From positions 62,001-126,000 of the forward strand of contig JAMONP010000052.1 in the NCBI GenBank assembly GCA_027065695.1: DNA of 64,000 nucleotides. The letters run 5' to 3'. The stretch is from Desulfuromonadales bacterium. GTDB taxonomy: Bacteria > Desulfobacterota > Desulfuromonadia > Desulfuromonadales > BM103. Each line of letters begins with the position of its first letter. Positions within the stretch are counted from its first letter, which is position 1. Shown here piece after piece: positions 5,532-44,246 of the stretch. The notes under the pieces are model-generated. The model saw nothing but the letters and a program-made list of their open reading frames with translations. It did not search any database and was not told the DNA's origin. Made by a program: the position numbers and the translations under genes.

Positions 5532-5536
5532 AACCT

Positions 5537-5615
5537 GGGACGAGGAGCGAGGAACGAGGAACGAGGAGAGTCAAAGGCTTTTCGCGTCCCGCGTCCCGCG
5601 TCCCGCGTTCCTCTC
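5537..5615. repeat. family F fold-back repeat (GGGACGAG / CCCGCGTTCC type)
   Basis: A purine-rich arm made of GGAACGAGG-like units is followed by a pyrimidine-rich arm made of CGCGTCCCG-like units, which is roughly its reverse complement. It fills the thiS-thiG gap and ends just before the thiG ribosome site GAGG. Related copies are at 21399-21604, 22462-22482 and 24138-24165. Confidence 0.6.
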
Positions 5616-5630
5616 TTTTCGAGGTTTAAG

Positions 5631-6401: not shown

Positions 6402-6443
6402 CCTTCTTAGGCACGCGGTAATTGCTGACAGACCATTTGCATC

Positions 6444-6536
6444 TGTAGGGGCTAAGCAAGCATCATCTGCTTCGCCCGTATTTAGGCCCCATGACGACAA
6501 GGGCGAAGCAGGTGAAACGTTTGCTTAGCCCCTACA
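6444..6536. repeat. family B fold-back repeat, copy 2
   Basis: This 93-bp unit has the same outer ends (TGTAGGGGC / GCCCCTACA) and inner pair (CTGCTTCGCCC / GGGCGAAGCAG) as the copy after glpK. It sits between thiG and thiH and ends only 10 bp before the thiH ATG, leaving no obvious Shine-Dalgarno sequence there. Confidence 0.8.
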
Positions 6537-24216: not shown

Positions 24217-25761
24217 TTATGGTGGCACAATAGCAGGATCAAACTGTCCACGTTTGAGCTGCACACGATATTTCATCAAAAGATGCGCCTGCAACCGCAA
24301 CACATCCTTATTCCATGGCCCATAAGCAACGTTAACAAACTGCTGATAATATTTAAGCGCCACCGGTATATTCCCCTGATTCTCAAAAATATAGCCGAGA
24401 TTATACCAGGCTGTCGGGTTAACTGGATTCGCCTTGATCGCCTTCTGATAATAAGGCAAGGCACCAGCCACATCATTTCGCACCAGATGAAGATTCCCCA
24501 CATTGTTAAGCACAAAAGATGATTGCGGATTGACCTTGAGAGCATGCATCCACAATGTCTCAGGGGAGGCCCAAACTCGGTTCTGTTGCCAGGTAAAAGA
24601 AACCAGGAGAATAGCTAAAGCACACGTAAGAGAGGCTGAAACTACGGGACGAGGCAAATACCGGCAGAGCAACCAGGCTATAATCATAGACATAGCTGCC
24701 CAGGGTACATACAAATAACGATCGGCAGCAAGGTAGACCAAAGGCCAGATATTGGAAACGGGGAGATAGAAAACGCTTCCCAGAACGAGCCATAAGAACA
24801 AAGGCGACCTATGGAGACCCGACCATACGAGAGCAGCAGCTATGCCAATCACCATCACCAAACCTGAAAGCACCCAAGGGTCCAGCCAACTTTGAGGCGG
24901 GAGGATAATATACTCAGTGGACAAGCCAGCTGGAAAAAGCAGTTTACTAAAACTGAAAGCCCAGGATTTCAGCAGGGTCAGGAGATAGACTTCAAATTGA
25001 GCTGCACCTAAAAAATTCGCCTTCGATTGCAGTAAGCCCTGGAATCCAGAGACATAACGAGCGACACCGTCAATCTTCCAGAACCAGAACAACCCACCCG
25101 TCCCACCAATCACTGCCAATCCCGCCAGAACTTTCCAACAGCGCAAGAGCAACCATTTTGAGCGCTCAACAAAGATCCATTCATACGCCAGAAAAACAAA
25201 TGGCAGGCACACAGCCGTCTGTTTGCTCTGATAAGCAATAGCAGCCAGACAAAAACTGCCGATAATGTATAACCAGGGCAGATAAGAAGACTTGAATGCT
25301 CTCTGATATGTGAGCAGAGCCAGCAAGGAGAAAACCAGAGACAAGCTCTCCTTGCGATGAGAGATATTAGCAACAGCCTCTACTGTGATGGGATGGACGA
25401 TGAACAGGACTCCTGAAATTAACCCGGCCAGCCAGCCGAAACCAAGGGCAAGCATAACCCGGTAAATCAAAAATCCAGCCAGACCGTGCCAGAAGATCGA
25501 TTGGACATGATACCCGGCGGGATTCGAACCAAACAGGGCGTGATCAACGAGATAGGTAAGCTCCCGGACCGGTCTCCCAGGGTAGCTGTCTTCAAGAAAA
25601 GCTGACCATGACTTGGTGTCCGGGTTATCGACAACTACTGGAAAATCATCATAGGTCCACTCGTGACCGATAGTATTACCGAAGACACAGAAGGCTAAGG
25701 CCATGAGCAATAGCAAAGGCAACAAGTTGGTCTTTATAACGGTCGGTAAAGATCCGTTCAT
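24217..25761 (-). CDS. polytopic membrane protein with C-terminal TPRs (GT-C glycosyltransferase-like)
   Basis: The 514-residue protein has about ten membrane helices followed by TPR repeats (LNNVGNLHLVRNDVAGALPY, AWYNLGYIFENQGNIPVALK). The first periplasmic loop EWTYDDFPVVVDNPD carries acidic residues where GT-C enzymes such as the TMTC/DUF1736 group bind the lipid-linked donor. A conserved HRKE loop follows. A role as a glycosyltransferase in the polysaccharide cluster is inferred. Its ATG overlaps the stop of the upstream gene by one base (TAATG), so the two are co-translated. Confidence 0.7.
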   Translation of the reverse strand: MNGSLPTVIKTNLLPLLLLMALAFCVFGNTIGHEWTYDDFPVVVDNPDTKSWSAFLEDSYPGRPVRELTYLVDHALFGSNPAGYHVQSIFWHGLAGFLIYRVMLALGFGWLAGLISGVLFIVHPITVEAVANISHRKESLSLVFSLLALLTYQRAFKSSYLPWLYIIGSFCLAAIAYQSKQTAVCLPFVFLAYEWIFVERSKWLLLRCWKVLAGLAVIGGTGGLFWFWKIDGVARYVSGFQGLLQSKANFLGAAQFEVYLLTLLKSWAFSFSKLLFPAGLSTEYIILPPQSWLDPWVLSGLVMVIGIAAALVWSGLHRSPLFLWLVLGSVFYLPVSNIWPLVYLAADRYLYVPWAAMSMIIAWLLCRYLPRPVVSASLTCALAILLVSFTWQQNRVWASPETLWMHALKVNPQSSFVLNNVGNLHLVRNDVAGALPYYQKAIKANPVNPTAWYNLGYIFENQGNIPVALKYYQQFVNVAYGPWNKDVLRLQAHLLMKYRVQLKRGQFDPAIVPP

Positions 25762-27485
25762 TACTTCACCCAGCGACTGAGCACGCTGACAGCCCGTTTG
25801 GCTTCCTGGTCATCAGGGTAGAATCCCAGAAACTTTTGATAGGCGCTCAACGCCTCGGTATGACGGCCAAGCCGCATGGCTGCCCGTCCCATAGCAAGCA
25901 GTGACCGTTTACGTGAGCCATCCTCAGAATAAAGACGTGACGCCTCGGCAAACATGGTAGCAAAAGCACTTTTCATCGGCTGAGCATTCTGTGCCAGAAA
26001 ATCCCGCTCAGCAGCAATCCTGCGAATATAAACAACCGCGACATCATCACTGTAGACCAGAGCCCAGCGGTTGTCTCGGGCCAGGCCATCGATCAGGTTG
26101 AGCGGACCACCGGTGTCTGAGAAACAGGTTCGGGTGATGATGGTGTTGATGCCGTATTCATCCAGGACATCTTCCCACCCAGGGCGCGCGAGTTCAATCT
26201 CAATGGAATCGCGGAAATGCTTGTTACTAGTGGAGCGACCGTCGATAAATACCAGGTAATCAGGGTAGAGTTGCCACATCAGGTAGCCGCCCCAATCGTA
26301 GGCGTTATAAATGGTGGCTGGTAGCTTATTATTGGCCAGGAACTCCGTTGCCTTGATCGGGTAATCCGATGCCTTCAAACCGACACCCAGAACCCCTCGG
26401 CTGCCCTCGAACAAGATCATTACCACAAGAAGAGCAATCGTTCCCCATTTCAGAGCCCCATCAACCATCTTTTGTTGTGTAACTTTACTCAACAGGGGTT
26501 TAAAAATATCCTGCATTGCCACAGGTAGGAAATATCCGGCCAGCAGGGCAACCAACGTAGTGTGACGGATCTGGCTGAACCCCATGTAAGAAAAGCCGAC
26601 AAAAAAGACAATTTCGGCCACATCCATCCGGCGGCGGCACAAGCGCCAGAGGATAGTCACACCCCATAGTGCCATGACAACATAGAACCACGGCACCTGC
26701 TCAAAGTTCGGCGGCAACCACTCCATGTTGCCCAGCATGCCGATCGGCGCATCTCCCGTTGCTACCTGGTACTGATTCAGATGTCCCAATAACTGACCAA
26801 CGGGTATACGGTAACCATAGGGGTTTACAAAGGCTGCGGCGAAGGTCAGCAGGCTGCAGAAGGTCAGTGTGCCGAGGGAGCGCCAGGAAGCAGTACCCCG
26901 CCAGGCCCGCCACAATTCGCCAATCCAGAAGGCAGCTATCAACGCAAAACCGAAGATGCAGGCGGCATGCAGATTGGCCCAGATCAGCATTAGCGGGATC
27001 ATCCAGAACCAGGCACGTCCCCCCCGTTCTCGACCGAGATACAACAGGTGAAGATAAAGCAGTCCGAATAGAAATGTCCAGAGTTGTGGACGTAACAACC
27101 AGGAATCTGCAGAGGCAATCAGGCAGAGTGTCAAGACCGGTAGGGCGTAAGCTAAGTCCACTCCCTTCTTTAGAGCCCAGCGCAACAGCAGCCCACCACA
27201 GATGGTGATCAGCAGTGGCTTCAATAGGGAAAGCAGCGGGTAACCGCCAGCAACATAAGTTATATAGAGGATGATGTCGTGCAGCCAGCAGTGCTCCAGG
27301 CGGAAGAGGTCACTAGCCAGGCTGAAGGTGTCCTGGTAGATGAACTGGCCGGTCTGCCAGATGTACTTGCCGGACTGGAGTTGCCAGAAGGTGTCGAAGG
27401 CTTCGATGGGGCGCAGGGCAAGAAGGAAGAGGCCTAGAATCCAAAGCCACGCTAAGATGTAGTTATTCCCCAACTTACGCATCAA
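25761..27485 (-). CDS. polytopic membrane protein, GT-C-like, paralog 1
   Basis: The 574 residues hold about a dozen hydrophobic helices, then a soluble region and TPR-like end (AMGRAAMRLGRHTEALSAYQ). It shares with the protein at 42483-44246 the order FDTFWQLQSGKY, RLEHCWLHD and YNAYDWGGYLMW-PDYLVFIDGR. The acidic and His residues of the first loop are placed as in GT-C enzymes. I infer a membrane glycosyltransferase, polymerase or ligase working on lipid-linked sugar; the exact activity is unknown. It overlaps the next gene by one base. Confidence 0.65.
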   Translation of the reverse strand: MMRKLGNNYILAWLWILGLFLLALRPIEAFDTFWQLQSGKYIWQTGQFIYQDTFSLASDLFRLEHCWLHDIILYITYVAGGYPLLSLLKPLLITICGGLLLRWALKKGVDLAYALPVLTLCLIASADSWLLRPQLWTFLFGLLYLHLLYLGRERGGRAWFWMIPLMLIWANLHAACIFGFALIAAFWIGELWRAWRGTASWRSLGTLTFCSLLTFAAAFVNPYGYRIPVGQLLGHLNQYQVATGDAPIGMLGNMEWLPPNFEQVPWFYVVMALWGVTILWRLCRRRMDVAEIVFFVGFSYMGFSQIRHTTLVALLAGYFLPVAMQDIFKPLLSKVTQQKMVDGALKWGTIALLVVMILFEGSRGVLGVGLKASDYPIKATEFLANNKLPATIYNAYDWGGYLMWQLYPDYLVFIDGRSTSNKHFRDSIEIELARPGWEDVLDEYGINTIITRTCFSDTGGPLNLIDGLARDNRWALVYSDDVAVVYIRRIAAERDFLAQNAQPMKSAFATMFAEASRLYSEDGSRKRSLLAMGRAAMRLGRHTEALSAYQKFLGFYPDDQEAKRAVSVLSRWVK

Positions 27486-27775: not shown

Positions 27776-28759
27776 TTATAGTTCTTTAAGCTCGGCCTGA
27801 ATCATCATGCAAACAACATCATGCATTTGGTATTCAGCTTGCCAGTCAAGCATTTCCTTTGCCTTTGTTGGATCGGCACGACCGACAAGGATATCCGACG
27901 GTCGCAACAGAGACGGATCGTTCTGAACATGATCGCGCCAATCCAGATTTACGGCCATGAAGGCTTCCGCAACAAACTCCTCCAAGCAGTAAGTTCTGCC
28001 TGTTGCGATGACAAAATCTTCAGGAACATTAAGCTGCAACATACGCCACATTGCCTCAACATATTCCGGTGCCCATCCCCAGTCCCGAGAGATATTCATA
28101 GCCCCCAATTGTAGCTTTTCATCGCTTCCATGAGCAATGCGGCATGCGGTAGAAACAATCTTTCGGGTCACAAAACGTTCAGGTCTCAGCGGAGACTCGT
28201 GATTGAAGAGCATACCCGAGCAAGCGTAGAGACCATAGGCTTCACGGTAGTTGGCAACCAACCAATAAGCTGCGGCCTTGGCTACGGCATAAGGTGACTG
28301 CGGATGAAACGGTGTAGATTCATTCGCTGGAGCGTCCTCTGTGTCACCAAAACATTCACTTGAACCTGCATTATAAAAACGGATTGGTTTACCGACGAAC
28401 CGAATTACTTCCAAAAGATTCAAGGTTCCGGTGCTGATGCTTTCAAGAGTTTCAACAGGTTGGTCGAAGGAAAGTCCAACCGAACTCTGGCCCGCTAGAT
28501 TATAGAGTTCATCCGGGGCAATTTTGCTGACCATCTGTAAGACACTGCGAAAATCGTTGAGAGACATAGATTCACTGTGCACACGTTCCTTAATCCCCAA
28601 CTTTGCTAAATTATTAAAAGTCGCCATTTGTGCATCACGTGCGGTTCCCCAAACCTCGTAACCTTTGTCGAGGAGCAACTTGGCCAGATAGGCGCCGTCC
28701 TGTCCAGAAATCCCGACGATCATGGCAACCGCTTGTTTGTTCTGCTTATGTTTTGTCAC
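27776..28759 (-). CDS. gmd: GDP-mannose 4,6-dehydratase
   Basis: This short-chain dehydrogenase makes GDP-4-keto-6-deoxymannose, precursor of GDP-fucose, GDP-rhamnose and GDP-perosamine. The NADP-binding motif is IVGISGQDGAYL, the catalytic Ser/Glu sit in NAGSSECFGDTE, and the Tyr/Lys pair in SPYAVAKAAAYW. LFNHESPLRPERFVTRK and NISRDWGWAPEYVEAMW are characteristic. At 327 residues it is slightly short but complete. The start is a GTG preceded by GGGAGG and overlaps the upstream glycosyltransferase gene by 14 bases. No epimerase or reductase follows, so the final sugar is unknown. Confidence 0.92.
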   Translation of the reverse strand: MTKHKQNKQAVAMIVGISGQDGAYLAKLLLDKGYEVWGTARDAQMATFNNLAKLGIKERVHSESMSLNDFRSVLQMVSKIAPDELYNLAGQSSVGLSFDQPVETLESISTGTLNLLEVIRFVGKPIRFYNAGSSECFGDTEDAPANESTPFHPQSPYAVAKAAAYWLVANYREAYGLYACSGMLFNHESPLRPERFVTRKIVSTACRIAHGSDEKLQLGAMNISRDWGWAPEYVEAMWRMLQLNVPEDFVIATGRTYCLEEFVAEAFMAVNLDWRDHVQNDPSLLRPSDILVGRADPTKAKEMLDWQAEYQMHDVVCMMIQAELKEL

Positions 28760-29876
28760 CGTGACCTCCCACAGATCGATATATTTTCAAGACTTCTTCA
28801 GCAGTGTTTTTCCAAGAGAATCTGGCCGCCTGCTTTAGCCCTTGTTCACGCAACGTGATGGATAGAGAGGGATTAACAAGCACCTCTCTGATTGCCTCGG
28901 CAACCGCAGAGACATCGGTCGGTTCAACCGTAATTCCAGCGTCTCCTACTACCTCAGGTATTGAGGTAGTGTTTGAGACAACCACTGGAATCCCGCAGGC
29001 CATTGCTTCCAGAGGAGGAAGGCCGAAGCCTTCAAACAGGGAAAGATAGGCAAAAACATTGGCACCTGCATAAATAGCTGGCAAGTCTTCATCCGGGACG
29101 AAGCCCGTAAACAGAACAAACTCTTCCAACCCGAGTGAACGGATGCGCACAAAAAGATCATCATAAAGCCATCCTTTGCGCCCGACAATGACCATTGAGG
29201 GTGGCATGGGTATTGATTCACGCAGTAGAGCATAGGCCTCTATCAAGGTCTGAAGATTTTTCCTGGGCTGAATTGTACCGACATAGAGGATATAACCCTC
29301 TCCTATTCCATGACGGTCACGTACAAGCTGTGCCACCTCTCGTCTTGGCTGTTGCTGACTCATTACCGGTTCGAAACCAAGTGGAACGACTTGAATCCGG
29401 TCTTCTGCAACAGCGTATTCAGAAATAATCTCATTTTTTGCATGCTCTGAATCTGTCATGACAAACCGGCTTTTTCGTGCTGCCCGCGGAATATGCAAGC
29501 GCCAGTAGAGTTGCGCAAGACGACCCTCCGTCTCCGAATGTTTGATCGGGATCAAATCGTGCAGGGTGACCACCACTGGACAATGGGGAGAAATTAGTGG
29601 GATAGCGCTTTTCGGACAGTGCAGCAAATCGACTTTTTCATCTCTACACAGAAGTGGCAGTCGGACATGCTCGCGCCAGAGCCTAGCTAGAGGCTTCTTT
29701 CCTGGGATGGCGACTTCTTTGGCCAGAGGGAACCGCCCCAAATGAGTTGCATCATTGTAAATGACAACATATTCGTTATCTTTATCCATAGGCAAAAGAG
29801 CGTCGAGTAATCCAAGAACATAAGTCCTCGGCCCTCCTTGGGTGGAAATGGTTGAAGCATCAATGGCAATGCGCAT
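28746..29876 (-). CDS. glycosyltransferase family 4
   Basis: The GT-B fold retaining transferase has 376 residues from the start MRIAIDASTI. The donor-binding C-terminal half shows VGTIQPRKNLQTLIEAY, LFTGFVPDEDLPAIYAGA and the EX7E region FEGFGLPPLEAMACGIPVV. AAAGGAGATG before the ATG at 29876 supports this start; the frame reaches 29957 without a better site. It begins two bases after the stop of the family 2 gene and overlaps gmd, so it is part of one operon. Confidence 0.9.
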   Translation of the reverse strand: MRIAIDASTISTQGGPRTYVLGLLDALLPMDKDNEYVVIYNDATHLGRFPLAKEVAIPGKKPLARLWREHVRLPLLCRDEKVDLLHCPKSAIPLISPHCPVVVTLHDLIPIKHSETEGRLAQLYWRLHIPRAARKSRFVMTDSEHAKNEIISEYAVAEDRIQVVPLGFEPVMSQQQPRREVAQLVRDRHGIGEGYILYVGTIQPRKNLQTLIEAYALLRESIPMPPSMVIVGRKGWLYDDLFVRIRSLGLEEFVLFTGFVPDEDLPAIYAGANVFAYLSLFEGFGLPPLEAMACGIPVVVSNTTSIPEVVGDAGITVEPTDVSAVAEAIREVLVNPSLSITLREQGLKQAARFSWKNTAEEVLKIYRSVGGHGDKT

Positions 29877-29878
29877 GT

Positions 29879-30676
29879 TCAGGCATCTCCTTTGTGAAAA
29901 CGGGGATGAAGCCGAAGTAGACCATGTAACCCCAAGCGCCTCAAAATACCCTTGCAAAAGCCTCTCAATACATTGTCACCCAGCCAGAACAATGCCTTGT
30001 AACGTGGATAACCTCGTTGAACTGTGACCCTATACACTTCTCGCCGCACGTCAATAAACCTTTCGTCACTGGCTCCACCGTAACTCATCTGCGCCAGGAT
30101 TTTATTGATATAAAAGAATTTCTTCCCGGCCAGATAGAATCGCAAAACAAGTTCATAATCCATGGCAACCTTGAGTGACACATCGAAATCACCAAGCTCT
30201 TCATAAACTTTCCGTGCAACAAATGTCGCCGGATGATTGATTGGCATCTGGTGCCATATGACTTTCCCAACCTCGACCGGTTTCAACAGGAAAAGCTCCT
30301 CTCCGCTTTCATCAAGACGTAGTAGGTCACCGTGAACAATCTCTGCCAGAGGATTTTTCCTGATTGCTTCGCAAACCTTGGACAGGGTCTCAGGAACATA
30401 ACGATCATCTGAATTGAGGATACCGATCCAATCTCCGGTCGCCATTGCCAAGCCTTTATTGAAAGCATCTGCAATACCATCATCAGGCTCTGACAACCAG
30501 CGTACAAATGGCCGGTCTTTAGCGTAAACCTTGATCAAATCAAGTGTTCCATCCACAGATCCGCCATCGATAAAAAGGTATTCAAGTTCCTCATAATTTT
30601 GGTTGAGGACGCTAATAATTGACTTTTCTAGGTACTCAACACTGTTAAACGTTGGCGTAATAATTGTGATTTTCAT
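29879..30676 (-). CDS. glycosyltransferase family 2
   Basis: An inverting GT-A transferase of 265 residues, starting MKITIITPTFNSVEYLEKSI. The nucleotide-sugar site is visible as FIDGGSVDGTLDLI, DDGIADAFNKGLAMATGDWI and the DxD-type ILNSDDRY. The acceptor side has HQMPINHPATFVARKVYEEL. There are no membrane helices, so it is cytoplasmic or peripheral. Its ATG overlaps the upstream gene's stop by four bases. Confidence 0.9.
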   Translation of the reverse strand: MKITIITPTFNSVEYLEKSIISVLNQNYEELEYLFIDGGSVDGTLDLIKVYAKDRPFVRWLSEPDDGIADAFNKGLAMATGDWIGILNSDDRYVPETLSKVCEAIRKNPLAEIVHGDLLRLDESGEELFLLKPVEVGKVIWHQMPINHPATFVARKVYEELGDFDVSLKVAMDYELVLRFYLAGKKFFYINKILAQMSYGGASDERFIDVRREVYRVTVQRGYPRYKALFWLGDNVLRGFCKGILRRLGLHGLLRLHPRFHKGDA

Positions 30677-31917
30677 TTATTGACAACTTCTTCATAAAGA
30701 GACTGGTATTTTTGTGCAATCATTGTAAGCTCAAAAGTATTAATAACTTTGTCCCTTGCTCGAGCGGAGGCTTTCTTAAGAAACTTGTCATTCTCAATCA
30801 GTCGAATGATGCCCGTTGCAAAAGAGTTTGCATCAAATGGAGTAGCCAGATAGCCGTTGCTGCCATTATCGATCATATCCGGCATTCCCCCTATATCAAA
30901 AGCAACACAAGGGGTTCCGCAGGCCAAAGCCTCCATAACGGTATTAGCCAGGTTTTCCTGAACTGAAGGGGCTACAAAAACATCTGCTGCGGAATATGCA
31001 TCAACTATACTTTGCTCATCATTCAACACGCCAAGAGAATGTGTTTTAAGACCATGCGCATCAATGGTTTCCTCAGATGAGCCGAAAACAACGGCCTCGC
31101 AATGATCGCCCCAACCATTCTGTCTGATGATTTCCAAGACCTCGCGAAGCAAATAAAAACCCTTCCTGCGATCACTAGTCGCCTGCATGGCTCCGAACAA
31201 AATCAATTTTTTGTCAACAGGCAGGCCAAGATGTTGCCGCACAGTAATTTTGTCCTGTGGCTTATAAACTTCAAGATTCAACCCGTTGGGAATAACTTCT
31301 ATGCGGAATCTTGAGAGTAAAGGACTCTTTTGAGCACATTCTGCAAGCCAATAACTGGGTGTTACAATTGTGAGGGGCAAATCCCGCCAGGCCTTTTCTT
31401 TACGCGTCCAGACCCAACGGCTGATATCCCTGTCACTTTTGGACTCCAATTGAGGGCATTTACCACAACGTTCTTTGTATTTCTCGCAATCACCCGTATA
31501 TAAGCAACCTCCAGAGAAAGCCCACATATCATGTAATGTCCAGACAATAGGGACATGCAATGACTTCAAGGCATCAATAGACAAGAATCCGGAATTGACC
31601 CAGTGCAAATGGACGACATCGGTACCGAAACGCTTGACTCTTCTGGGCAAATTTCCAGGTAACCATGCAAGGCTGAATGAGGGGCTAATAGATGGATACA
31701 ACATGCGTAAAGGTAGTTTGTCCAGCGAGAAACGGGCAACATGAACACCTTGTTTGCCTCCCACAGCGTGCCCATTTATGCCAACGTCTCCGCCAAGGTT
31801 TTCCTGGACGAACATTGTAGCAGACAAACCATTTGATCGCAGGCCTTGGAGTAACCGGCAAGCTGCTCTTGCAGCTCCCCCGGAAGAATCGCTGGTATTT
31901 ACCAGAGCTACTTTCAC
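30673..31917 (-). CDS. glycosyltransferase family 4 (WcaC-like)
   Basis: The 414-residue GT-B enzyme opens MKVALVNTSDSSGGAARAAC, where the Gly-rich loop follows strand 1. It has VWTLHDMWAFSGGCLYTGDC and the cysteine cluster ERCGKCPQL, typical of the WcaC-type branch used in colanic-acid-like polysaccharides. The donor site shows FVAPSVQENLANTVMEALAC. It starts with GTG in a four-base overlap with the fusion gene before it. Confidence 0.88.
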   Translation of the reverse strand: MKVALVNTSDSSGGAARAACRLLQGLRSNGLSATMFVQENLGGDVGINGHAVGGKQGVHVARFSLDKLPLRMLYPSISPSFSLAWLPGNLPRRVKRFGTDVVHLHWVNSGFLSIDALKSLHVPIVWTLHDMWAFSGGCLYTGDCEKYKERCGKCPQLESKSDRDISRWVWTRKEKAWRDLPLTIVTPSYWLAECAQKSPLLSRFRIEVIPNGLNLEVYKPQDKITVRQHLGLPVDKKLILFGAMQATSDRRKGFYLLREVLEIIRQNGWGDHCEAVVFGSSEETIDAHGLKTHSLGVLNDEQSIVDAYSAADVFVAPSVQENLANTVMEALACGTPCVAFDIGGMPDMIDNGSNGYLATPFDANSFATGIIRLIENDKFLKKASARARDKVINTFELTMIAQKYQSLYEEVVNK

Positions 31918-34283
31918 CTGAACCTCTCACGTAAGACCTTACCGAACATCGCAGGAAAAGTTGCAGGTTTGACGGGGATTACTTTTTTCGGGCTGGATAT
32001 AATTGCTGTCATTTCTTTGACCAGAAATTCTGTATCGATTTTTTCAAGTGATCGATGCGGCACTTGATAAGACTCAGCTAAAGAAGTCACCTTACCACGA
32101 CCTAAGGTGTAATCAATTGCAACTGTCGGCAAGCTGGCATCTAGCGCAAAAACCAGAGAATGGAAACGCATAGCCAGAGCAGCATCGGCCATACGGAAAA
32201 CATTTAGAGCTTCAGCCGGGGTCAGTTCTTTTGACAGATATGACGTATTGAATCGATCCTTGAGCGAGGGGATTTTACGAAGAAGGCTCCTCAGGTACCA
32301 GCGGTCATCACCACCATGAGAATTTGTACACATCGGGAAGGGGACAAGCACAAGGTTCTTATGCTTTGTGGCGATCTCTATTAAAAATTCAATAAGACAT
32401 TCTTCAAAATGTTCTTTAATTCGATAAGCTTTAGCTCTCGAAAAATGCCCTGCATACTGTTCGACAGGCCAATCCCGCAGACCGAGTAACAACCGGAATT
32501 TTCCGTCATTCTCTACATTGTGGGCGATAGGCAATGCAGAGAGACTCGTTTGCAACCAGGCAAAGGCTGGGTCTTCTACAACTAAGTCTGTGTTAGTAGA
32601 GATTCCAATACTTTGAGCGTTATAAAGAGATTTATGATCACGGTAAATGCGAATAGCAGCAGATGATAGCACTGCTTTTATTGCTTGGTTGTGGTACTGC
32701 CTACCAAAAGGGCCTACACCACATCCGGCCACGACACTTTTTTTCTTAAGGTGTTTGGCTTTCTCAAAGAACACCTGCATTTCAGCCATATTGTCGATTG
32801 CCATGAGAGGGCCGCCACCAAAAATGAGCAGGTCGATATCAGTTAGCAGTTTTAAGCCATCTTCAACATTGCAAATCGAGATATCACCAAGATCGGGCAT
32901 CTGTTCCAATGTGACCGCGCTGACTGTTTGGTCCAGAGAAACCAGGTGGATATCAATAGCACTGTAACTATTCCTTAAGACTCCGACAATACCACCGAGA
33001 ATGGCTTTGTCGCCAAGGGTTTCCGTCCCATACCAACCAACAACCAGAACTCTCATCTTTCTGTTCTGTTCCTCAGGAGCCCATTTCGAAGATTTCTCTA
33101 AATCCTCAGCAATATTTCGATAGGCTTTCAGCCTCTTGGCGAATGTACGAGCTCCTGTAATACTGTTGATCGATGCTGAAATACGTCTTCGGCGATTCTG
33201 AGTCAGAGGCAGTCCTAATCTGTCGAGCAGGGAGACAAGAAAGTGCCTCGCGGCCACTCTTGGTGATGGCAAGCCAACATAATCGTGCTTACAATCTGCA
33301 CAACGGCTGGCAACAATTTCATGTAAATGTTTTTTGTTATTGAAATAAAGTTTTTCACTATCGCAATCTATTGCTGAACCCAGCACATCACTTTCTACTG
33401 CGCAATAAAGCAACTCCCCTCGGGCCGATAGTGTAACGCCTCTGTGTTGCCAATCACACCCTGCCTTACGAGGGCTGCCATTGAGTAGTTGATCCACCAA
33501 TGAGCGATAAAAAAATTTCTGAATCTCAGATGTCTCATACAGCCTTATGGCCCCCTCTAAGAACATACCGAAATGCAACTTTTCCGCAGAGGACAGAGCA
33601 AAGGGCTCAGTCAATTCGTCAGCATACAAACGCTGATGCGGTATCCCGAGCCGGAACTTTATATGCACCCCTTTTAGAATCGCAAAATCTAAAAGATCAT
33701 GTAAACCAAAAATGTTTTCGCGAATTACTGTACAGCCGAGATGAAGGCGATCAACCGCAGACGATACAAGACAATGCTCTATCACTCTTACTGCATTTTC
33801 AAAACTTCCTGCCCGACCCCTGACTCTATCATGAACATCCCCAACACCATCGAGTGAGACCATGACAGAAAATATCTTATTTGAGTCTTGCAGGCCAACA
33901 CCAAGGGCATCAATCTGCGCTATGACATTTTCCGCATTTAGTGCATTTGTAATCAGTGAAATAGTTCTTAATTTTGGTAGACGTGCAACCAGTATACTGG
34001 CAATTTCCGGTAAATCTTTCCGGAGGGTTGGCTCACCCCCATTCAATCCAACGCCTGAGACCTCAGCGAATAACCGGTTGGATAAAATGACCGCTAGATC
34101 TGCTGTTGAAATTTGAGAATCCAACTTTTTCTGCCAGACATTGCACATCTGGCAAGAAGAATTGCAAATGTCATTGACCGGAAACTGAATGACATGAGGC
34201 TTCTCCAAGGAAAGTCTATTGTCAACCCCCTGTAGTCGCTTGGCCATGCATTGCAAATCCTTCAGTTTACCTAGGATCGACAT
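31914..34283 (-). CDS. radical SAM / polysaccharide pyruvyl transferase fusion protein
   Basis: This 789-residue protein joins two enzymes. Residues ~30-400 are a radical SAM domain with CX3CX2C at Cys40, Cys44 and Cys47 (CNSSCQMC), GLNGGEPTLR, SLDGVGDVHDRVRG, and auxiliary cysteines (GCDWQHRG, LLYCAVES, CADCKHD) like SPASM or twitch enzymes. Residues ~410-789 are a CsaB/PssM-type polysaccharide pyruvyl transferase with GWYGTETLGDKAILGGIV, LIFGGGPLMA, AGCGVGPFG and MRFHSLVFALDAS. Met410 (33056) has GAGG upstream, so a separate C-terminal product is possible. It lies between the sulfotransferase and a glycosyltransferase, four-base overlap downstream. The combination is unfamiliar to me; both domain calls are good, the joint function is unknown. 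Confidence 0.85.
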   Translation of the reverse strand: MSILGKLKDLQCMAKRLQGVDNRLSLEKPHVIQFPVNDICNSSCQMCNVWQKKLDSQISTADLAVILSNRLFAEVSGVGLNGGEPTLRKDLPEIASILVARLPKLRTISLITNALNAENVIAQIDALGVGLQDSNKIFSVMVSLDGVGDVHDRVRGRAGSFENAVRVIEHCLVSSAVDRLHLGCTVIRENIFGLHDLLDFAILKGVHIKFRLGIPHQRLYADELTEPFALSSAEKLHFGMFLEGAIRLYETSEIQKFFYRSLVDQLLNGSPRKAGCDWQHRGVTLSARGELLYCAVESDVLGSAIDCDSEKLYFNNKKHLHEIVASRCADCKHDYVGLPSPRVAARHFLVSLLDRLGLPLTQNRRRRISASINSITGARTFAKRLKAYRNIAEDLEKSSKWAPEEQNRKMRVLVVGWYGTETLGDKAILGGIVGVLRNSYSAIDIHLVSLDQTVSAVTLEQMPDLGDISICNVEDGLKLLTDIDLLIFGGGPLMAIDNMAEMQVFFEKAKHLKKKSVVAGCGVGPFGRQYHNQAIKAVLSSAAIRIYRDHKSLYNAQSIGISTNTDLVVEDPAFAWLQTSLSALPIAHNVENDGKFRLLLGLRDWPVEQYAGHFSRAKAYRIKEHFEECLIEFLIEIATKHKNLVLVPFPMCTNSHGGDDRWYLRSLLRKIPSLKDRFNTSYLSKELTPAEALNVFRMADAALAMRFHSLVFALDASLPTVAIDYTLGRGKVTSLAESYQVPHRSLEKIDTEFLVKEMTAIISSPKKVIPVKPATFPAMFGKVLRERFR

Positions 34284-34286
34284 AAC

Positions 34287-35069
34287 TTACTCAACCAGCT
34301 CGGGATAATATTTTTTGATAAGTCCTCTCGTGTTTTTCAAAATATAGGATTTGTCTTCATCATGAATGTCATAATTCTTTTCACCTTTCCTGACAAACTT
34401 GTAATTTCTAACCGGACATTTTTTCAAAAAAAGTACATTGTCCTCTTTCATATTCTCAAATGAAGACATTTCTACAGATTCCCGGATCGTTTTTTCACTA
34501 ATTAAAACCCCCAAATTATTAAACAGGGTTCTCATCTCTTTGTAAGTATCGTCTTTTAAATCTTCGTACCTCTGAATATGTATTTTTATTGATCGATCCA
34601 CCCCAAGCCAGGATTCTACGTGCCGGTTCCAGGCCATGGCACCATATCTTTCATCCTTGATGAAGTCCGAAAATGTCCCCTGGTAGCCTATCCGTCCTTG
34701 TAAAAATGCATAGTAACTTACCATGACACTTATTGGGTTTCTCACCAAGTAGATAACGTGACGGTAAGAGACATTGAATTCTTCATGGCTTTTGATGAGA
34801 CGGTAACCCGGAAGAGACAGTATGCTGGGTCCGATCTGGTGAGACTGATGAACATCACCTACGAACTGCTCAAGGTTGAAATGGGTCGCTTTTTGCTTCA
34901 TTCCTGCCTCCACGAGACAGCAATTGACAAATAATGTCGTGAACCAGGTTACCCCACTCTTTGGGAACTCGACAAAAAACAAATCACTGTTATTAAACCG
35001 ACCTTTAACTTGGCTTAGCGAAGAAAAAGTATGCCATATCCTTTTTAATTTTCTGCTTAAGTTATTCAT
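34287..35069 (-). CDS. sulfotransferase
   Basis: The 260-residue protein has the two PAPS-binding elements of cytosolic-type sulfotransferases: the 5'-phosphosulfate loop FVEFPKSGVTWFTTLF near residue 35, and the 3'-phosphate motif YLVRNPISVMVSYYAFLQG. The catalytic base may be the His of RLIKSHEEF. It would transfer sulfate from PAPS to a glycan hydroxyl. No ribosome site is obvious before the ATG. The sequence is AT-richer than the flanking housekeeping genes, as are the next two genes upstream, which suggests transfer as a block. Confidence 0.88.
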   Translation of the reverse strand: MNNLSRKLKRIWHTFSSLSQVKGRFNNSDLFFVEFPKSGVTWFTTLFVNCCLVEAGMKQKATHFNLEQFVGDVHQSHQIGPSILSLPGYRLIKSHEEFNVSYRHVIYLVRNPISVMVSYYAFLQGRIGYQGTFSDFIKDERYGAMAWNRHVESWLGVDRSIKIHIQRYEDLKDDTYKEMRTLFNNLGVLISEKTIRESVEMSSFENMKEDNVLFLKKCPVRNYKFVRKGEKNYDIHDEDKSYILKNTRGLIKKYYPELVE

Positions 35070-35114: not shown

Positions 35115-36410
35115 CTAGCGGATAAGCCCGTACTTTTTAATCACCCGCGAAAAATCCAAAAAACATAAAGTTTTCAGTTGCATAAAAAACAATGGTCGAG
35201 ACTTATTATAAATTGCATTCGAAAAAACATAAGCAAAAGCATATGAAATCAACGTGGAATATGCCGCGCCGACTATTCCATAAATGGGAAGAAGATAATA
35301 ATTAAGAAAAATATTCACAAATGAAGCGGAAACATTGGCATACATAATAAACTTTACATAACCTTCTGTTGTAGCCCACAAGCTTCTCGCCATGCCAACA
35401 AAAATTATGATATTTGAAAGGATATGAACAATTAAAACACCTGACGACTCAATATATTGTTTTCCGTAAATCAGATGAAGAATTTCTGCAGGAAACATTA
35501 CAAAGGGAATGCAGATTAGCAAAGATAGGGCAAACAACACTGTAAAGACATCTTGCATTCGCGCTTCATATAAAGAAGCACTTTGATCTTTTGCCTCAAC
35601 GATGAATTTTTGAACTGAGTGCACAACTGAAACTGGAAGAAAATACCAAACTACCGAAATTTTCACGACAGCGCTATATTGACCAAGTGCATAATTACCC
35701 AACATCTGCCCGATCATTAACTGGTCGACCTGCTGATACAACATGGAGAAGAGACCCGAAAAAATCAACGGCCAGCTTTCGCCCAACAGTGCAACAGAAT
35801 CCCTTTGTGTAACCGACCAACCATCCTGTCCGTTCATCCGCCGGTAAACCCACAACAAACCGCCAGCAACGAGCACTCCCTCGAAAAAGTAGGTGGCACC
35901 AAGCAAAACAAGTGACCCACCAGCAACCAGGACCAGTATGCGGGCTAAGGACGCCAACAATACCCCCACCAACTGTGGAATAACTGAGTACTTGGCTAAA
36001 ACTAATGACCGCAGCCACAACTCAACAACATCTAAGGACCGCGCTAAATGCCCAAAAGAAAGTAGAATAACTAACCAGAAAAGAACTGTATCCTCTGGCC
36101 TGAGTAACATCGAGAAGAAACCTGTCGTTACAATCAGTACCAATCCACCCAGGCAGCGCAACAAAAATGCGCTGCCCAACAGAGTCCCCTTTCGGTCAGG
36201 ATAACGAACCAGTTCACGCACCAGAATCCCGTCAAGACCCAATCGTGAAAAAATGGAAAATATGCCAACCAATGCCAATCCGAAATTCAGCCGTCCAAAG
36301 TCTGTAGCTCCCAAAGACCGGGCCATCCAGGCAACAACGAACAAACCAACTACCATCCGAATGATACGGTCAAACCATAACCAGCTTAAATTGACAAGCA
36401 CCTGCTCCAA
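35115..36410 (-). CDS. Wzx-type oligosaccharide flippase
   Basis: The 431-residue protein is almost entirely membrane helices (about 12-14) in the MATE/PST fold. It opens LVNLSWLWFDRIIRMVVGLF and has the common FGRLNFGLALVGIFS and WPLIFSGLFSMLYQQVDQLM segments of flippases that move undecaprenyl-linked repeat units across the inner membrane. It is the only flippase candidate in the cluster. Codon use is AT-rich. Substrate unknown. Confidence 0.87.
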   Translation of the reverse strand: MEQVLVNLSWLWFDRIIRMVVGLFVVAWMARSLGATDFGRLNFGLALVGIFSIFSRLGLDGILVRELVRYPDRKGTLLGSAFLLRCLGGLVLIVTTGFFSMLLRPEDTVLFWLVILLSFGHLARSLDVVELWLRSLVLAKYSVIPQLVGVLLASLARILVLVAGGSLVLLGATYFFEGVLVAGGLLWVYRRMNGQDGWSVTQRDSVALLGESWPLIFSGLFSMLYQQVDQLMIGQMLGNYALGQYSAVVKISVVWYFLPVSVVHSVQKFIVEAKDQSASLYEARMQDVFTVLFALSLLICIPFVMFPAEILHLIYGKQYIESSGVLIVHILSNIIIFVGMARSLWATTEGYVKFIMYANVSASFVNIFLNYYLLPIYGIVGAAYSTLISYAFAYVFSNAIYNKSRPLFFMQLKTLCFLDFSRVIKKYGLIR

Positions 36411-36543: not shown

Positions 36544-37419
36544 CTAAATCTCTACATACGTCAGGAAAGAGAATCCACCATACCGTGTGGTCCCTCCAAC
36601 ATCGGGAAAAATTTTATGGTTTTTGATATACGTAATGGCGGTAGCCGCTTCTAATCGGTCAAGCTTTCGGCACAACTCTTTTCCCTGCCAGCACCAGGCA
36701 ACCTCTTCCAGTTCCAGCACACCTTTGGAGACCAACATGTTTGCAGTCGGGAAACCAGGCAAACCATAACCATACAACTTGTGCAAAGGCGGATTATCAT
36801 CAAACAAAAGGTACTGAAATCCTCTTTCCTTTGCCTCAATAATTCTACGAGCATGACTCACATGACAATCAAAAAACACCATCGCTTTTCGAGGGTCAAC
36901 GGACCCGAAGTCAAACAAAGACCAATCTTGCTCAAAATACTCAACATTTCCATCCTTATATTCAAGATTGTCCAAATCGATATCAAAGCCAAGAACAGTT
37001 GCATCGGGACACGCACTTTCGAGTAACCACGAAGTATGTCCTTTCCAAACACCACTCTCCACAATCAGTTCCGGCTTAAGGGCCCGAACAAAAAGGAATA
37101 TCCAAAACATATTATGAAACCCGCTGCCACCGGTATTGTTCTGCAGACCCCGATTAGAATAGAGCTCATAAAAAAAATCAATTTCCACTCGAAGATCAAT
37201 TTTTTCAAAATTCAATTGATTTTCTTCAAAAAACATGATAGACACGGCCACCAATTCATCAATCAGTACCTTTTTCAACCCGTCATCTTTCATAAATGAA
37301 AGAGCTGGATCGTGTACCTGCTGGAGAGGGCCGCTGCCTAAAGCTTTTTTCTTCTCAATTTTGAGCCCAAAGGGAGCCAAAACACTATTTACTGTTTTTG
37401 ATATTTTTTGCCTGCTCAT
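36544..37419 (-). CDS. SAM-methyltransferase-like protein of the polysaccharide cluster
   Basis: The 291-residue protein has a central Rossmann-like segment ELIVESGVWKGHTSWLLES, which resembles SAM-binding motif I, followed by an acidic strand (GFDIDLDNLEY) and MVFFDCHVSHARRII. This is the pattern of CmcI-type and macrocin-type methyltransferases. A sugar O-methyltransferase is the most likely role, from context. GAGG lies 11 bases before the ATG. It is first in line before the flippase gene and AT-rich. The family call is moderate. Confidence 0.55.
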   Translation of the reverse strand: MSRQKISKTVNSVLAPFGLKIEKKKALGSGPLQQVHDPALSFMKDDGLKKVLIDELVAVSIMFFEENQLNFEKIDLRVEIDFFYELYSNRGLQNNTGGSGFHNMFWIFLFVRALKPELIVESGVWKGHTSWLLESACPDATVLGFDIDLDNLEYKDGNVEYFEQDWSLFDFGSVDPRKAMVFFDCHVSHARRIIEAKERGFQYLLFDDNPPLHKLYGYGLPGFPTANMLVSKGVLELEEVAWCWQGKELCRKLDRLEAATAITYIKNHKIFPDVGGTTRYGGFSFLTYVEI

Positions 37420-38463: not shown

Positions 38464-38556
38464 TTTAACCATAGACCCTGATAGATTTTCATCGCGGCTA
38501 ATTATGCCTTTGACCTTGTGTTTTGATCATAACCACAGAGCCTGATAGATTCTCAC
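38464..38556. repeat. family C right-arm fragments
   Basis: Two right arms without left arms: CCCTGATAGATTTTCATCGC at about 38476-38495 and a shorter GAGCCTGATAGATTCTCACC near 38538. The second abuts the stop of the HepT-like gene. Confidence 0.6.
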
Positions 38557-38924
38557 CTAACATCACTAATAATTTTCTTTATAGTTGCGGTGAGCGGTTT
38601 CATCCTGTTCTCGCAAACCCAAAAGATTTCCTCAGCATCGACATCAAAATAATGATGCGAAATTATATCCCTCATCCCTTTTGCGCCCTTCCAATCTATC
38701 TCTGGATATTGTGACAAAAGTTTTTTGTTGGTGATCTTGTCAATATTCTTTAGACTTTCACCGATTGCGATTATGACCATACAAATGGCATCAAGTTTTT
38801 CCATGCCCTCCGGAGTATCCGTAAAGTAATCAACTGAAGCTACAGGTTCAAAGCGTTTCATAACCAGGTCTATGGCGTCAGATGTCTGCTTCAACACCTC
38901 GAGAAGCATCTCCTTATCGCACAT
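38553..38924 (-). CDS. hepT: HepT-like HEPN toxin (DUF86)
   Basis: HepT toxins are HEPN ribonucleases whose activity is blocked when the partner MntA adds AMP to a Tyr. The 123-residue helical product has the catalytic RX4HXY motif as RDIISHHY near residue 90. The start at 38924 (MCDKEMLLEV) is preferred because AGAGGCGGTTT precedes it. It overlaps the upstream nucleotidyltransferase gene by 11 bases. The 3' end touches a family C fragment. Confidence 0.85.
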   Translation of the reverse strand: MCDKEMLLEVLKQTSDAIDLVMKRFEPVASVDYFTDTPEGMEKLDAICMVIIAIGESLKNIDKITNKKLLSQYPEIDWKGAKGMRDIISHHYFDVDAEEIFWVCENRMKPLTATIKKIISDVR

Positions 38925-39207
38925 AAACCGCCTCTTTTTCAATCCGCCGTCTCAAAAAAGGATTCATCTTTTCACGAAACCTTACCAGGTCAACAGGCAT
39001 CCGTAGTCGTTCCTCCAAATCTTCCTTTATATGCACCATAATAAAAGGGTCTGGTGTTTCCGTCATTACGACAATGTCTGCATCACTGAATTCTGAAGCC
39101 TGCTCCCTTGCGAAAGAGCCAAAAACCCCAATGGACAGGAGGCCATACTTATCGCCTTCAATCCTTTTGAATTCTGCCAAGGTGTTCAGTAAATCAGATC
39201 TGTTCAT
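38914..39207 (-). CDS. mntA: MntA-like minimal nucleotidyltransferase antitoxin
   Basis: This 97-residue protein has the nucleotidyltransferase signature GSFAREX9-type loop followed by the metal-binding SDADIVV. MntA partners adenylylate and neutralise HepT. The start at 39207 (MNRSDLLNTL) has GGAGAATGAA upstream; longer in-frame ATGs are less well placed. It is the first gene of the pair, and its 3' end overlaps hepT. Confidence 0.85.
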   Translation of the reverse strand: MNRSDLLNTLAEFKRIEGDKYGLLSIGVFGSFAREQASEFSDADIVVMTETPDPFIMVHIKEDLEERLRMPVDLVRFREKMNPFLRRRIEKEAVYVR

Positions 39208-39252
39208 TTCATTCTCCATACAGAGTTGACCAAACAAAAGTAAACATTTATT

Positions 39253-39312
39253 TAGCCACGATCAGAATCTATGAAAATTGGTAAGAGCAAAAGACCTGAT
39301 CTTGACAAATTT
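39253..39312. repeat. family C repeat, left arm with degraded right arm
   Basis: A TAGCCACGATCAGAATCTAT left arm is followed by GGTAAGAGCAAAAGACCTGA and a decayed CTTGACAAATT end that reaches the 3' end of the HEPN gene at 39311. It lies between the two HEPN/nucleotidyltransferase pairs. Confidence 0.6.
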
Positions 39313-39721
39313 ATTTTCGACCTTCTATCGGAAACTTCAATCGAGTATTCACAAGTTCATACAAGTTACCGGCAAATTTGAAAAAACCTTTGGCTTCGTC
39401 TATATCAGGAGCACCCTGGGGCAAAAGCCCCAACGCCCCTGGATACCTGGAATCAATATAGAGCTTGTTCAAAAGTGCGAGGATATCTTCCTCCGCCCCG
39501 ACATCCCATACCTCTGATACAATCCCATTCAGGGTAATCAGGTCGTGAGACTTGATCCCTCCCAACTCATGCTCTTCTATTATGGCCTTGAGTACCTTCT
39601 CGACGCATTGCTGTGCATGAAAAGCAACAACTGCCGTCAATTCGGCACGTCCGAGAAGTGCTTCCATTGTGAGCAAATCAGATCTGGCAGATTTAAGCCA
39701 ATCAACTGAAATCGGTTTCAT
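39311..39721 (-). CDS. HEPN-domain protein (COG2250-type)
   Basis: The 136-residue helical protein has the HEPN landmarks WLKSARSDLLTMEALL, VAFHAQQCVEKVLKAII, KSHDLITL and YIDSRYPGAL. I do not see the RX4-6H ribonuclease motif that marks HepT toxins, so it may be an inactive or non-RNase HEPN. It is coupled to the nucleotidyltransferase gene by a four-base overlap (ATGA), as in a second, distinct HEPN/MNT pair. Confidence 0.8.
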   Translation of the reverse strand: MKPISVDWLKSARSDLLTMEALLGRAELTAVVAFHAQQCVEKVLKAIIEEHELGGIKSHDLITLNGIVSEVWDVGAEEDILALLNKLYIDSRYPGALGLLPQGAPDIDEAKGFFKFAGNLYELVNTRLKFPIEGRK

Positions 39722-40047
39722 TGAAGATCAATCCCCTCAGTGAGAATTTTTTTTGAAAATTGACTTCCGGATTTGGCAAATCGCTCAAACTCTGGCTTGG
39801 TGTAGACAAGCAGATCAATCGGTACCTTTTTCTCTATACAGCGAATAGCACGGCTGATCTTCAGATAGTTCTCACTCTGTGCCTTAAAGGTCTGTGGTGT
39901 TTCGTTTTTATCCAGCACAACAAGAAGGTCGATATCGCTGTCGGAACTTGAGGTACCACGTGCATGAGAACCAAAAAGGAGAATCTTCACCGTTTTTTCG
40001 GCCGCCATTATCCTTGATGATAAGTCTTTCAATAATTCATCAGTCAT
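39718..40047 (-). CDS. minimal nucleotidyltransferase, partner of the HEPN gene
   Basis: The 109-residue protein carries GSHARGTSSSDSDIDLLV, the full two-metal nucleotidyltransferase motif, and a C-terminal half that ends FSKKILTEGIDLQ. GGAGGGTTGA immediately before the ATG is a strong ribosome site. It is more distant from the MntA at 38914 than the shared motif suggests, so the two pairs are not recent duplicates. Confidence 0.85.
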   Translation of the reverse strand: MTDELLKDLSSRIMAAEKTVKILLFGSHARGTSSSDSDIDLLVVLDKNETPQTFKAQSENYLKISRAIRCIEKKVPIDLLVYTKPEFERFAKSGSQFSKKILTEGIDLQ

Positions 40048-42482: not shown

Positions 42483-44246
42483 TCACTTTTTACTCGCCTT
42501 ATTTACCACTTGAGTGAGCTGGCGATGTAGCTTTTCGGCAGCAGGGAAGCGTTTCGGTGCTCTAGCGAGATACTGGTTCAGGGCGAACAGAGCATTATTG
42601 TACTGCTTGCGCCTGGTGTAGATCTGCGCCATCTCCCACCAGGACATGTAGCGATTTGCATTGTTCTTAATCATCAAGAGAGTTTCGGAGAGAACTGTGT
42701 CGTCTATACGCTTCTTTGAGAGAGCATGTTTTTTCAGCCAGTCTTCGGAGACGCTGCCACGCCTAACGAAAACCATTGAAGATTCAGTATTGAGAACCAA
42801 ATACCAGTCGGGATGAGCGGCGAGTCGATCAAGCAACGGATACTTCTGCCCGGTATCAATTGTCGATGCTCGCGTAACAATTGTATTGACGTTAAATTTA
42901 TTTAGAATCTGCTCCCAGTCTGGCTTACCAGCCATTACATTCCAACCGAGGTTGAACATCTCTGCCGAGTTCTGGCGGCCGTCCCAGAACATCAGATAAT
43001 CAGGGAACAGCTTGAAAGCCATATAGCCGCCCCAGTCGTAGGTATTGTAGATATTTTTTGGTAACTTGTGCTCTTTGACAAACTCGGTGGCGGCAATCGG
43101 GTAGTGCCAACTGCGTAGCCCCGTGTTAAACAGTCCATAAACCCTGTAAAGAGGTTGCCAGAAATACCAGAAAGAGCCTATAGCCAAAGCACAAACCGCG
43201 ACCATGGCGATGTTGCGATACAGCTGCGGTAATCGCTGACGGAGCGGTTCCGCAAGCTGATCGAGGTAGGCCGGCAGAATGGCGACCATCCCCATGTAAA
43301 AAAACGGCACATGCCGCACGAGCTTGAGCCCCATCAGGGCCAACCCAGCCAGCAAGCAAAGGTCTGATAGCCGGAGCCTGCGCCATCCCAGCAACATGAT
43401 CACACCGGCCAAAGCCATTGCATAAAAGAATATCGGCTGATTCTGGAATGTGGTCGGCGTCCAGTCCATGTTGAACACCGCCAGGGAACTGCCGGTCACT
43501 TTGCCAGCAGCGTCGACTGTGGCACCCAATTTGTAAGAGCCCAGCAGGGTATTGAACCAGCGGGCAGGATAGGGATTGGCAAGTCCGGCCAGTAACACAC
43601 CAACCAACAGACCAAACAACTGACCGGTACCCAGCCATGAAAACCGTCTGGCAATTAGTGATTGCCCAGTCTCGCCGACCAGGTAAGCGGCAACCAGGGC
43701 TAGAGCCAGAATCGAGCCAGCATGGAGATTACTCCAGAACATCATCAGTGGCAGCAACCAGAGAATCTGCCATGACGGCCGGTTCAAGTAACCTTCTAGC
43801 CACCAGATAAAGATTGCAGTGCAAAGGAAAGTCCAGATCTGCGGCCGCTCAAGCCAACCACCACTGGTCAGCAGAAACACCGGCAGCAACGTGGCGATCG
43901 CCAACCAGGAAGATTTACGGCGACGGGCGGCCAGAGTCAGAAAGCAAGCGGTGGCAGTAATGACCAGACCCTTTAACACGCTGATGGCACCATATCCTGC
44001 AACTTTGTAAAGCCCGAAAAGGATCAGGCTGTGCAGCCAGGTGTGTTCATGCCGCGGCACATCCGCCGCCAGGGTGAAGGTGTCGGTGCGGATCATACTC
44101 ATGGTATCGACCATGTAGCGGCCGTTTTGAAGCTGCCAGAAGACGTCGAAGGAATGCACTACGGAGATTGTGACAGCGAGGATCGCGAGGAGCATCGCGC
44201 ATAATATGCCGGGGCCAAAATATGTTGTGATACGAGGGAATTTCAT
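42483..44246 (-). CDS. polytopic membrane protein, GT-C-like, paralog 2
   Basis: This 587-residue protein is the counterpart of 25761-27485: FDVFWQLQNGRYM, RHEHTWLHSLILF and YNTYDWGGYMAFKL-DYLMFWDGR occur in the same order. About twelve membrane helices are followed by a soluble region and TPR-like end (YTRRKQYNNALFALNQYLAR). The identity is too low for a recent duplication. A lipid-linked glycosyltransferase role is inferred from fold and context; no catalytic role is proven. Confidence 0.65.
   Translation of the reverse strand: MKFPRITTYFGPGILCAMLLAILAVTISVVHSFDVFWQLQNGRYMVDTMSMIRTDTFTLAADVPRHEHTWLHSLILFGLYKVAGYGAISVLKGLVITATACFLTLAARRRKSSWLAIATLLPVFLLTSGGWLERPQIWTFLCTAIFIWWLEGYLNRPSWQILWLLPLMMFWSNLHAGSILALALVAAYLVGETGQSLIARRFSWLGTGQLFGLLVGVLLAGLANPYPARWFNTLLGSYKLGATVDAAGKVTGSSLAVFNMDWTPTTFQNQPIFFYAMALAGVIMLLGWRRLRLSDLCLLAGLALMGLKLVRHVPFFYMGMVAILPAYLDQLAEPLRQRLPQLYRNIAMVAVCALAIGSFWYFWQPLYRVYGLFNTGLRSWHYPIAATEFVKEHKLPKNIYNTYDWGGYMAFKLFPDYLMFWDGRQNSAEMFNLGWNVMAGKPDWEQILNKFNVNTIVTRASTIDTGQKYPLLDRLAAHPDWYLVLNTESSMVFVRRGSVSEDWLKKHALSKKRIDDTVLSETLLMIKNNANRYMSWWEMAQIYTRRKQYNNALFALNQYLARAPKRFPAAEKLHRQLTQVVNKASKK

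Follow-up and report, generated by a model that had tools for sequence, protein, structure and literature searches.

Within the window, by which we mean the whole 64,000-nucleotide stretch of Desulfuromonadales DNA analysed here, lies a minus-strand gene (31914..34283) that joins a radical S-adenosylmethionine (SAM) domain to a polysaccharide pyruvyl transferase. Its 789-residue product is read from an ATG at 34283 to a stop that ends at 31914, in a single uninterrupted frame with no internal stop, and single-frame homologues occur elsewhere. A first-pass annotation of this DNA had described the 789-codon frame at 31914-34283 without giving a strand, together with a radical SAM domain carrying Cys40/44/47 and auxiliary cysteines, and both descriptions are borne out. 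The radical SAM core spans residues 36-172 (33768..34178, minus strand) and matches PF04055 with 47.7 bits against a curated Pfam cut-off of 29.5; only about 28 residues are N-terminal to it, and Cys40, Cys44 and Cys47 form its CX3CX2C motif. Further along on the same strand, the cysteine motif C276-X12-G-X4-C294 ... C328-X2-C331 marks a twitch-type auxiliary cluster region (33291..33458), with C276, C294, C328 and C331 as the auxiliary cysteines. The pyruvyl transferase domain starts with the GWYGTETLGDKAIL signature at residues 416-429 (32997..33038, minus strand), an acceptor-side motif of the general form GW[YW]GTETxGDxAIL that is present in 16 of 17 aligned fused proteins. PF04230 (PS_pyruv_trans) follows at residues 458-725 (32109..32912, minus strand), with 59 bits against a Pfam gathering cut-off of 25.3; it contains R548, R603, R706 and H708, counterparts of residues in the phosphoenolpyruvate (PEP) site, and a fifth counterpart, K731, lies just beyond it. 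The radical SAM and pyruvyl transferase halves have G+C contents of 0.447 and 0.449, respectively, against 0.494 for the whole window.

The pairing of a radical SAM domain with a pyruvyl transferase is not unique to this genome, and the fusion is rare but broadly spread. A scan of genome contigs, for which the aligned radical SAM half and patterns from five sequences served as the query, confirmed 315 loci; in at least 16 of the best 80 (L071-L082, L084, L086, L099 and L101), profiles of each half place both domains in one frame. These 16 loci are labelled as at least eight phyla, the labels being Cyanobacteriota, Melainabacteria, Chloroflexota, Pseudomonadota (Solimonas, Methylococcaceae), SAR324, Rhodothermota, Planctomycetota, Geobacteraceae, an uncultured delta proteobacterium and Halanaerobiales. 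Fifteen of them are titled as metagenome-assembled genomes, which leaves room for binning errors behind some of the phylum labels; one comes from a cultured strain, Solimonas soli DSM 21787. Searches with a profile of the fused protein found fusions in four of 244 genomes of the cyanobacterial phylum, that is, in three besides the starting genome; elsewhere they recovered the starting genome only (1/216, 1/221, 1/203 and 1/52), and the phylum of genome G529 gave no fusion and two split pairs among 199 genomes. The first-pass annotation had suggested looking for the same domain order across genomes and had considered that the two domains might always sit on separate genes, joined here by error. 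The 16 or more scanned loci and the three further genomes contradict that idea.

Closer to the window organism, the pyruvyl transferase half as a query at E 1e-12 retrieved no fusion besides that of the window among 136 genomes of its order, and 58 relatives gave no other match spanning both halves. Nor did any other match cover both halves in 395 genomes of its phylum, with scoring confined to the two best candidates of each genome; the best match there, L048, has a radical SAM gene 27% identical to the radical SAM half and a separate pyruvyl transferase gene about 40 bp later. The fused locus L099, labelled Geobacteraceae, may belong to the same wider group as the window organism. Each of 10 matching plasmid records held one half only, three phage records matched the radical SAM half only, and none of the 26 loci checked on viral contigs had a pyruvyl transferase match. 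In the open-access literature searched, no paper was found that pairs radical SAM enzymes with polysaccharide pyruvyl transferases, and the main text of one review (PMC6801904) is without the terms 'radical SAM', 'fusion' or 'fused'. The fusion is a real, recurrent and uncharacterised architecture built from two known enzyme families.

Both domains look intact, as had been supposed at first pass, the counterparts of their catalytic residues being invariant in all 17 aligned fused proteins. On the radical SAM side this holds for C40, C44, C47, C276, G289, C294, C328, C331 and H333. The SPASM motif is described as CX9-15GX4C-gap-CX2C (PMC6231123, excerpt), and C276-X12-G289-X4-C294 with C328-X2-C331 fit its first four cysteines, corresponding to one predicted auxiliary cluster. 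Judged by these motifs, the PF04055 half belongs to the radical SAM superfamily and, on sequence, to the SPASM/twitch class. On the pyruvyl transferase side R548, S552, R603, R706, H708, Y725 and K731 are invariant. In CsaB, R148, H308 and K328 bind PEP and an R207 variant is inactive; R148, H308, K328 and R207 correspond to R217, H339, K361 and R266 of Pvg1p (PMC10435577, excerpt). The counterparts of CsaB R148, R207, R306, H308 and K328 are R548, R603, R706, H708 and K731, as placed through proteins matching the CsaB model, Pvg1p and motif spacing, with the P. alvei sequence itself outside the alignment. Against the PDB, a profile of this half retrieves only Pvg1p (5ax7; E 0.048), with R706-F-H708 on R-L-H and K731 on K, and in two proteins that score above the CsaB cut-off (L159 and L163) R, R, R and H align with R548, R603, R706 and H708.

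An identity with CsaB proper was considered for the pyruvyl transferase half and rejected, at 84 bits with TIGR03609 against an equivalog cut-off of 213.1. Of the earlier label 'CsaB/PssM-like pyruvyl transferase', membership in PF04230 therefore stands, while the name CsaB fails by NCBI's rule. Among the 25 of 52 NCBIfam matches listed, none reaches its own cut-off.

The whole protein was modelled with AlphaFold at a predicted local distance difference test (pLDDT) score of 87 and a predicted template modelling score of 0.86. The model has a radical SAM fold followed by a GT-B fold at residues ~408-789, and linker residues 357-369 fall below a pLDDT of 50. Compared with GT-B proteins, the C-terminal half gives a top Z of 26.5 (root-mean-square deviation, rmsd, 3.4-4.1 over 333-336 residues), and epimerases and glycosyltransferases head the list. 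Pvg1p is described as GT-B-like (PMC4872226, excerpt); it is not among the 50 fold matches listed, which we do not count against family membership. Modelled alone, the N-terminal half (pLDDT 90.4) matches SkfB (Z 22.8, rmsd 3.9, 290 residues), BlsE (22.6, 3.3, 290) and SuiB (22.0, 5.6, 292), followed by MoaA (21.1), anSME (20.3) and BtrN (16.1, rmsd 3.2, 223 residues). The predicted fold supports the SPASM/twitch class and no particular substrate.

The two parts also occur as adjacent separate genes, in L087, L089 and, up to a contig end, L083, and the pyruvyl transferases of these three loci likewise begin with GWYGTET. A deeper group (L048, L090, L091, L104 and, by eye, L175) combines a relative of the radical SAM gene with a pyruvyl transferase of a different type, the pair being adjacent in L048, L090 and L091 and near neighbours in L104 and L175. 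The radical SAM/twitch family is wider than the fusion, with further groups represented by L048, L175, L085, L088, L093 and L096. In L141, relatives of both halves lie about 4 kb apart and were left out of the count of pairs.

Trees of the two halves are broadly congruent. They were built from 161 radical SAM and 48 pyruvyl transferase matches, of which 52 and 40 rows were kept after omission of duplicates (L021, L030, L050-L055, L151, L164, L167-L169, L171, L173, L001 and L056) and of radical SAM matches below 140 bits; L165 is labelled solo because its locus was short, L175 being its longer form with a partner judged by eye. Both trees contain a 24-row group of all 20 fused rows and four split rows with GWYGTET (support 99/96 and 99/94), and both trees also have a seven-row set that unites the window with Microcystis, Mastigocoleus, G596, Chloroflexaceae, Solimonas and SAR324 (98/94 and 99/99). 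L099 forms a long branch. In the radical SAM tree the split rows stand as sisters of most fused rows, and they are placed differently in the pyruvyl transferase tree, so that one fusion with later splitting, or the opposite course, may lie behind them. The identities of the two halves correlate across the fused proteins (r = 0.81 for 136 pairs of 17 proteins; 0 of 5000 permutations as high), as would be expected for parts inherited together. Since no other fusion was found in the searched genomes of its own order, and since its nearest rows in the trees come from other orders, the window's fusion was likely acquired horizontally.

Three side observations concern these relatives. In L174, the two genes of a split radical SAM and pyruvyl transferase pair are separated by transposase-like open reading frames (5384-6524, by eye). 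The radical SAM proteins of L101 (5563-8250, fused) and L087 (5671-6993, split) have an N-terminal extension with, by eye, a GAG...G Rossmann-like motif. A 1301-residue protein in L049 (8367-12272) has a pyruvyl transferase domain first and then, seemingly, glycosyltransferase-like sequence, the second part being recognised by eye.

The gene sits, as the first-pass annotation had it, inside a sugar operon, with glycosyltransferases, a sulfotransferase, a flippase and a nucleotide-sugar enzyme as neighbours, all on the minus strand. Its start is 3 bp past the stop of a sulfotransferase (34287..35069; PF00685), upstream of which lies a Wzx-type flippase (35115..36410; PF01943). Its stop overlaps by 4 bp the start of a GT4 glycosyltransferase (30673..31917; Pfam), the recurrent downstream partner of the fusion. 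A GT2 glycosyltransferase (29879..30676; PF00535) comes next, again with a 4-bp overlap, and then a second GT4 (28746..29957; Pfam) and a GDP-mannose 4,6-dehydratase-like enzyme (27776..28759; PF16363, 356 bits).

This arrangement was compared with that of 19 other fused loci, in which neighbour genes were called by a simple open reading frame picker; in 18 of them (all except L078) the contig extends to a further gene downstream. A same-strand GT4 is immediately downstream in 13 of the 18, and these GT4s score 125-463 bits against the GT4 that follows the fusion in the window, their best match among the window's query genes. L077 has a GT4 three genes away and L081 a divergently adjacent one. 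As a control, none of 47 radical SAM loci has a GT4 of this type next downstream, and none of them scores above 80 bits against the GT4 of the window; the control is weak, being made of general loci that are not all sugar clusters. Sulfotransferase homologues are found at position -1 in L075 and L079 and at -2 in L179, and flippase homologues at -1 in L072 and L078 and at -2 in L075. Among the 25 of 68 families listed in a Pfam tally of 81 neighbours, glycosyltransferases lead, and nucleotide-sugar enzymes, flippases, sulfotransferases and ABC exporters are also present.

Elsewhere in and around the sugar cluster, two large membrane proteins that flank it (25761-27485 and 42483-44246) have common N-terminal patterns (FWQLQ.G.Y) and look, by eye, like paralogues. 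A 291-residue protein of the cluster (36544-37419) has no Pfam family at E 1e-3, and small minus-strand open reading frames at 38553-40047, one of them HEPN-like, are possibly a toxin-antitoxin module (by eye). The host genome carries a second, stand-alone pyruvyl transferase-like gene (L182, 8145-9269; G000 contig C52, 248303-249235), which scores 79 bits with the CsaB model, under the cut-off.

The resemblance to known ketal pyruvyl transferases (CsaB, Pvg1p and WcaK) extends to the PF04230 match, the GT-B fold and the PEP-site counterparts; CsaB differs in having GYYGF instead of GWYGTET, and fusion to a radical SAM domain sets the window protein apart. Three systems are informative for the other half. 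BtrN shares the radical SAM core and a four-cysteine twitch region and acts on a sugar-like cyclitol; it is a twitch enzyme that has a four-cysteine cluster and carries out a two-electron oxidation (PMC9012708, excerpt). It differs as a free-standing enzyme of butirosin antibiotic synthesis, and its fold match is below those of SkfB and BlsE. BlsE, a cytosylglucuronate decarboxylase, is alike in fold, and its substrate is a sugar-bearing nucleoside (PMC3715490, excerpt). Relatives score 36.4 and 45.9 with the BlsE family model, against a cut-off of 400. We know of no pyruvyl transferase partner for BlsE. SkfB, a twitch sactipeptide synthase, is the best PDB match of the radical SAM half both in sequence (E 6e-8) and in fold; it has an N-terminal leader-binding domain (PMC6231123, excerpt), for which the fused protein has no room, and it acts in a peptide context, whereas the fused gene stands in a glycan context.

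There is a strong case that the C-terminal half would transfer pyruvyl from PEP and, equally, that the N-terminal half would generate radicals from SAM; that both act on the same substrate unit is a proposal of moderate strength. The first-pass annotation had raised the possibility of a radical step and a pyruvyl ketal step on one glycan, and this is plausible. On balance we regard the protein as probably a genuine bifunctional glycan-tailoring enzyme, which would place a PEP-derived pyruvate ketal and a radical modification on the same lipid-linked sugar unit. In such a scheme the GT-B-fold domain would add the ketal to a sugar of a cytoplasmic lipid-linked oligosaccharide, and the radical SAM/twitch domain would generate a 5'-deoxyadenosyl radical that takes a hydrogen from the same sugar unit. 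An electron could then pass to the auxiliary cluster, as proposed for BtrN, with an oxidised sugar as the most likely result, and the modified unit would be extended by the GT4 of the adjoining gene and exported by the flippase. Oxidation as the radical outcome, similar to that of BtrN, is a tentative suggestion.

Several observations weigh against this proposal. On the acceptor side, Y14 and F16 of the CsaB GYYGF motif affect the acceptor (PMC10435577, excerpt), and the motif reads GWYGT here, with W and T in 16 of 17 fused proteins. In four loci with related radical SAM genes (L085, L088, L093 and L096) a pyruvyl transferase match is missing, so that the radical reaction may do without such a partner. 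In the pyruvyl transferase tree, where the split pairs group with the fused L101, the fused rows do not form a single clade. No GT4 was found within three genes in L073, whose contig ends after one gene, L074 or L099. The peptide enzymes SkfB and SuiB tie with the nucleoside-sugar enzyme BlsE in the fold comparison, and MoaA is a twitch enzyme without net oxidation (PMC9012708, excerpt).

The strongest competitor, less probable in our judgement yet to be taken seriously, is that the two activities are independent, acting on different sugars of one repeat unit and paired for co-expression or channelling only. The unfused adjacent pairs and the four related radical SAM rows whose loci are without a pyruvyl transferase match speak for it; a long-lasting and largely co-inherited pairing, with the fusion kept down to 28% identity, would instead suggest tighter coupling, though no more than suggestively. 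At the other extreme of coupling, the two domains could perform a two-stroke reaction at one position, in which the GT-B domain would install the ketal and the radical SAM/twitch domain would remodel the ketal or its carbon, for example to a lactyl ether and a ketone, as a radical route to acidic sugars. We consider this unlikely. It is similarly unlikely that the pyruvyl transferase half has lost its pyruvate-transferring activity and either catalyses another GT-B reaction or serves only to bind sugar for the radical half. The replacement of GYYGF, the score far under the CsaB cut-off and the lead of epimerases and glycosyltransferases in the fold list would fit such a loss, but all five PEP-site counterparts are invariant in the 17 fused proteins and the PF04230 cut-off is passed.

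More doubtful still is that the target of the radical SAM half is a peptide or protein, as it is for SkfB, SuiB and anSME, while the pyruvyl transferase half works on an attached or cooperating glycan. The first-pass annotation had allowed for radical chemistry on a peptide, and SkfB-type enzymes do stand among the best matches, but the idea finds little support at the locus, though a peptide elsewhere might serve: the ~28 residues before the core are too short for an SkfB-type leader-binding domain, the 3-bp gap and 4-bp overlap leave no space for a precursor peptide gene in the immediate flanks (a systematic search for small precursor open reading frames was not made), and the neighbours are glycan genes. 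That faulty sequencing or assembly created the fusion, or that an internal start at Met410 (at 33056, as stated at first pass) divides its product in the cell, is scarcely credible. The fusion recurs in a single frame, one cultured strain included, and the other 16 fused proteins of the alignment all lack a methionine at the Met410 column, despite a weak GAGG 14 bases before Met410.

With a pyruvyl transferase as partner, the radical enzyme most likely has as its substrate a sugar open to pyruvylation on a lipid carrier; the recurrent GT4 neighbour restricts the choice still more, and the radical step thereby becomes directly testable. The cysteine motif together with GWYGTETxGDxAIL provides a signature for finding further fusions. 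What the fusion offers is a link between radical chemistry and the pyruvylation of glycans, within a single conserved protein found repeatedly in differently labelled phyla.

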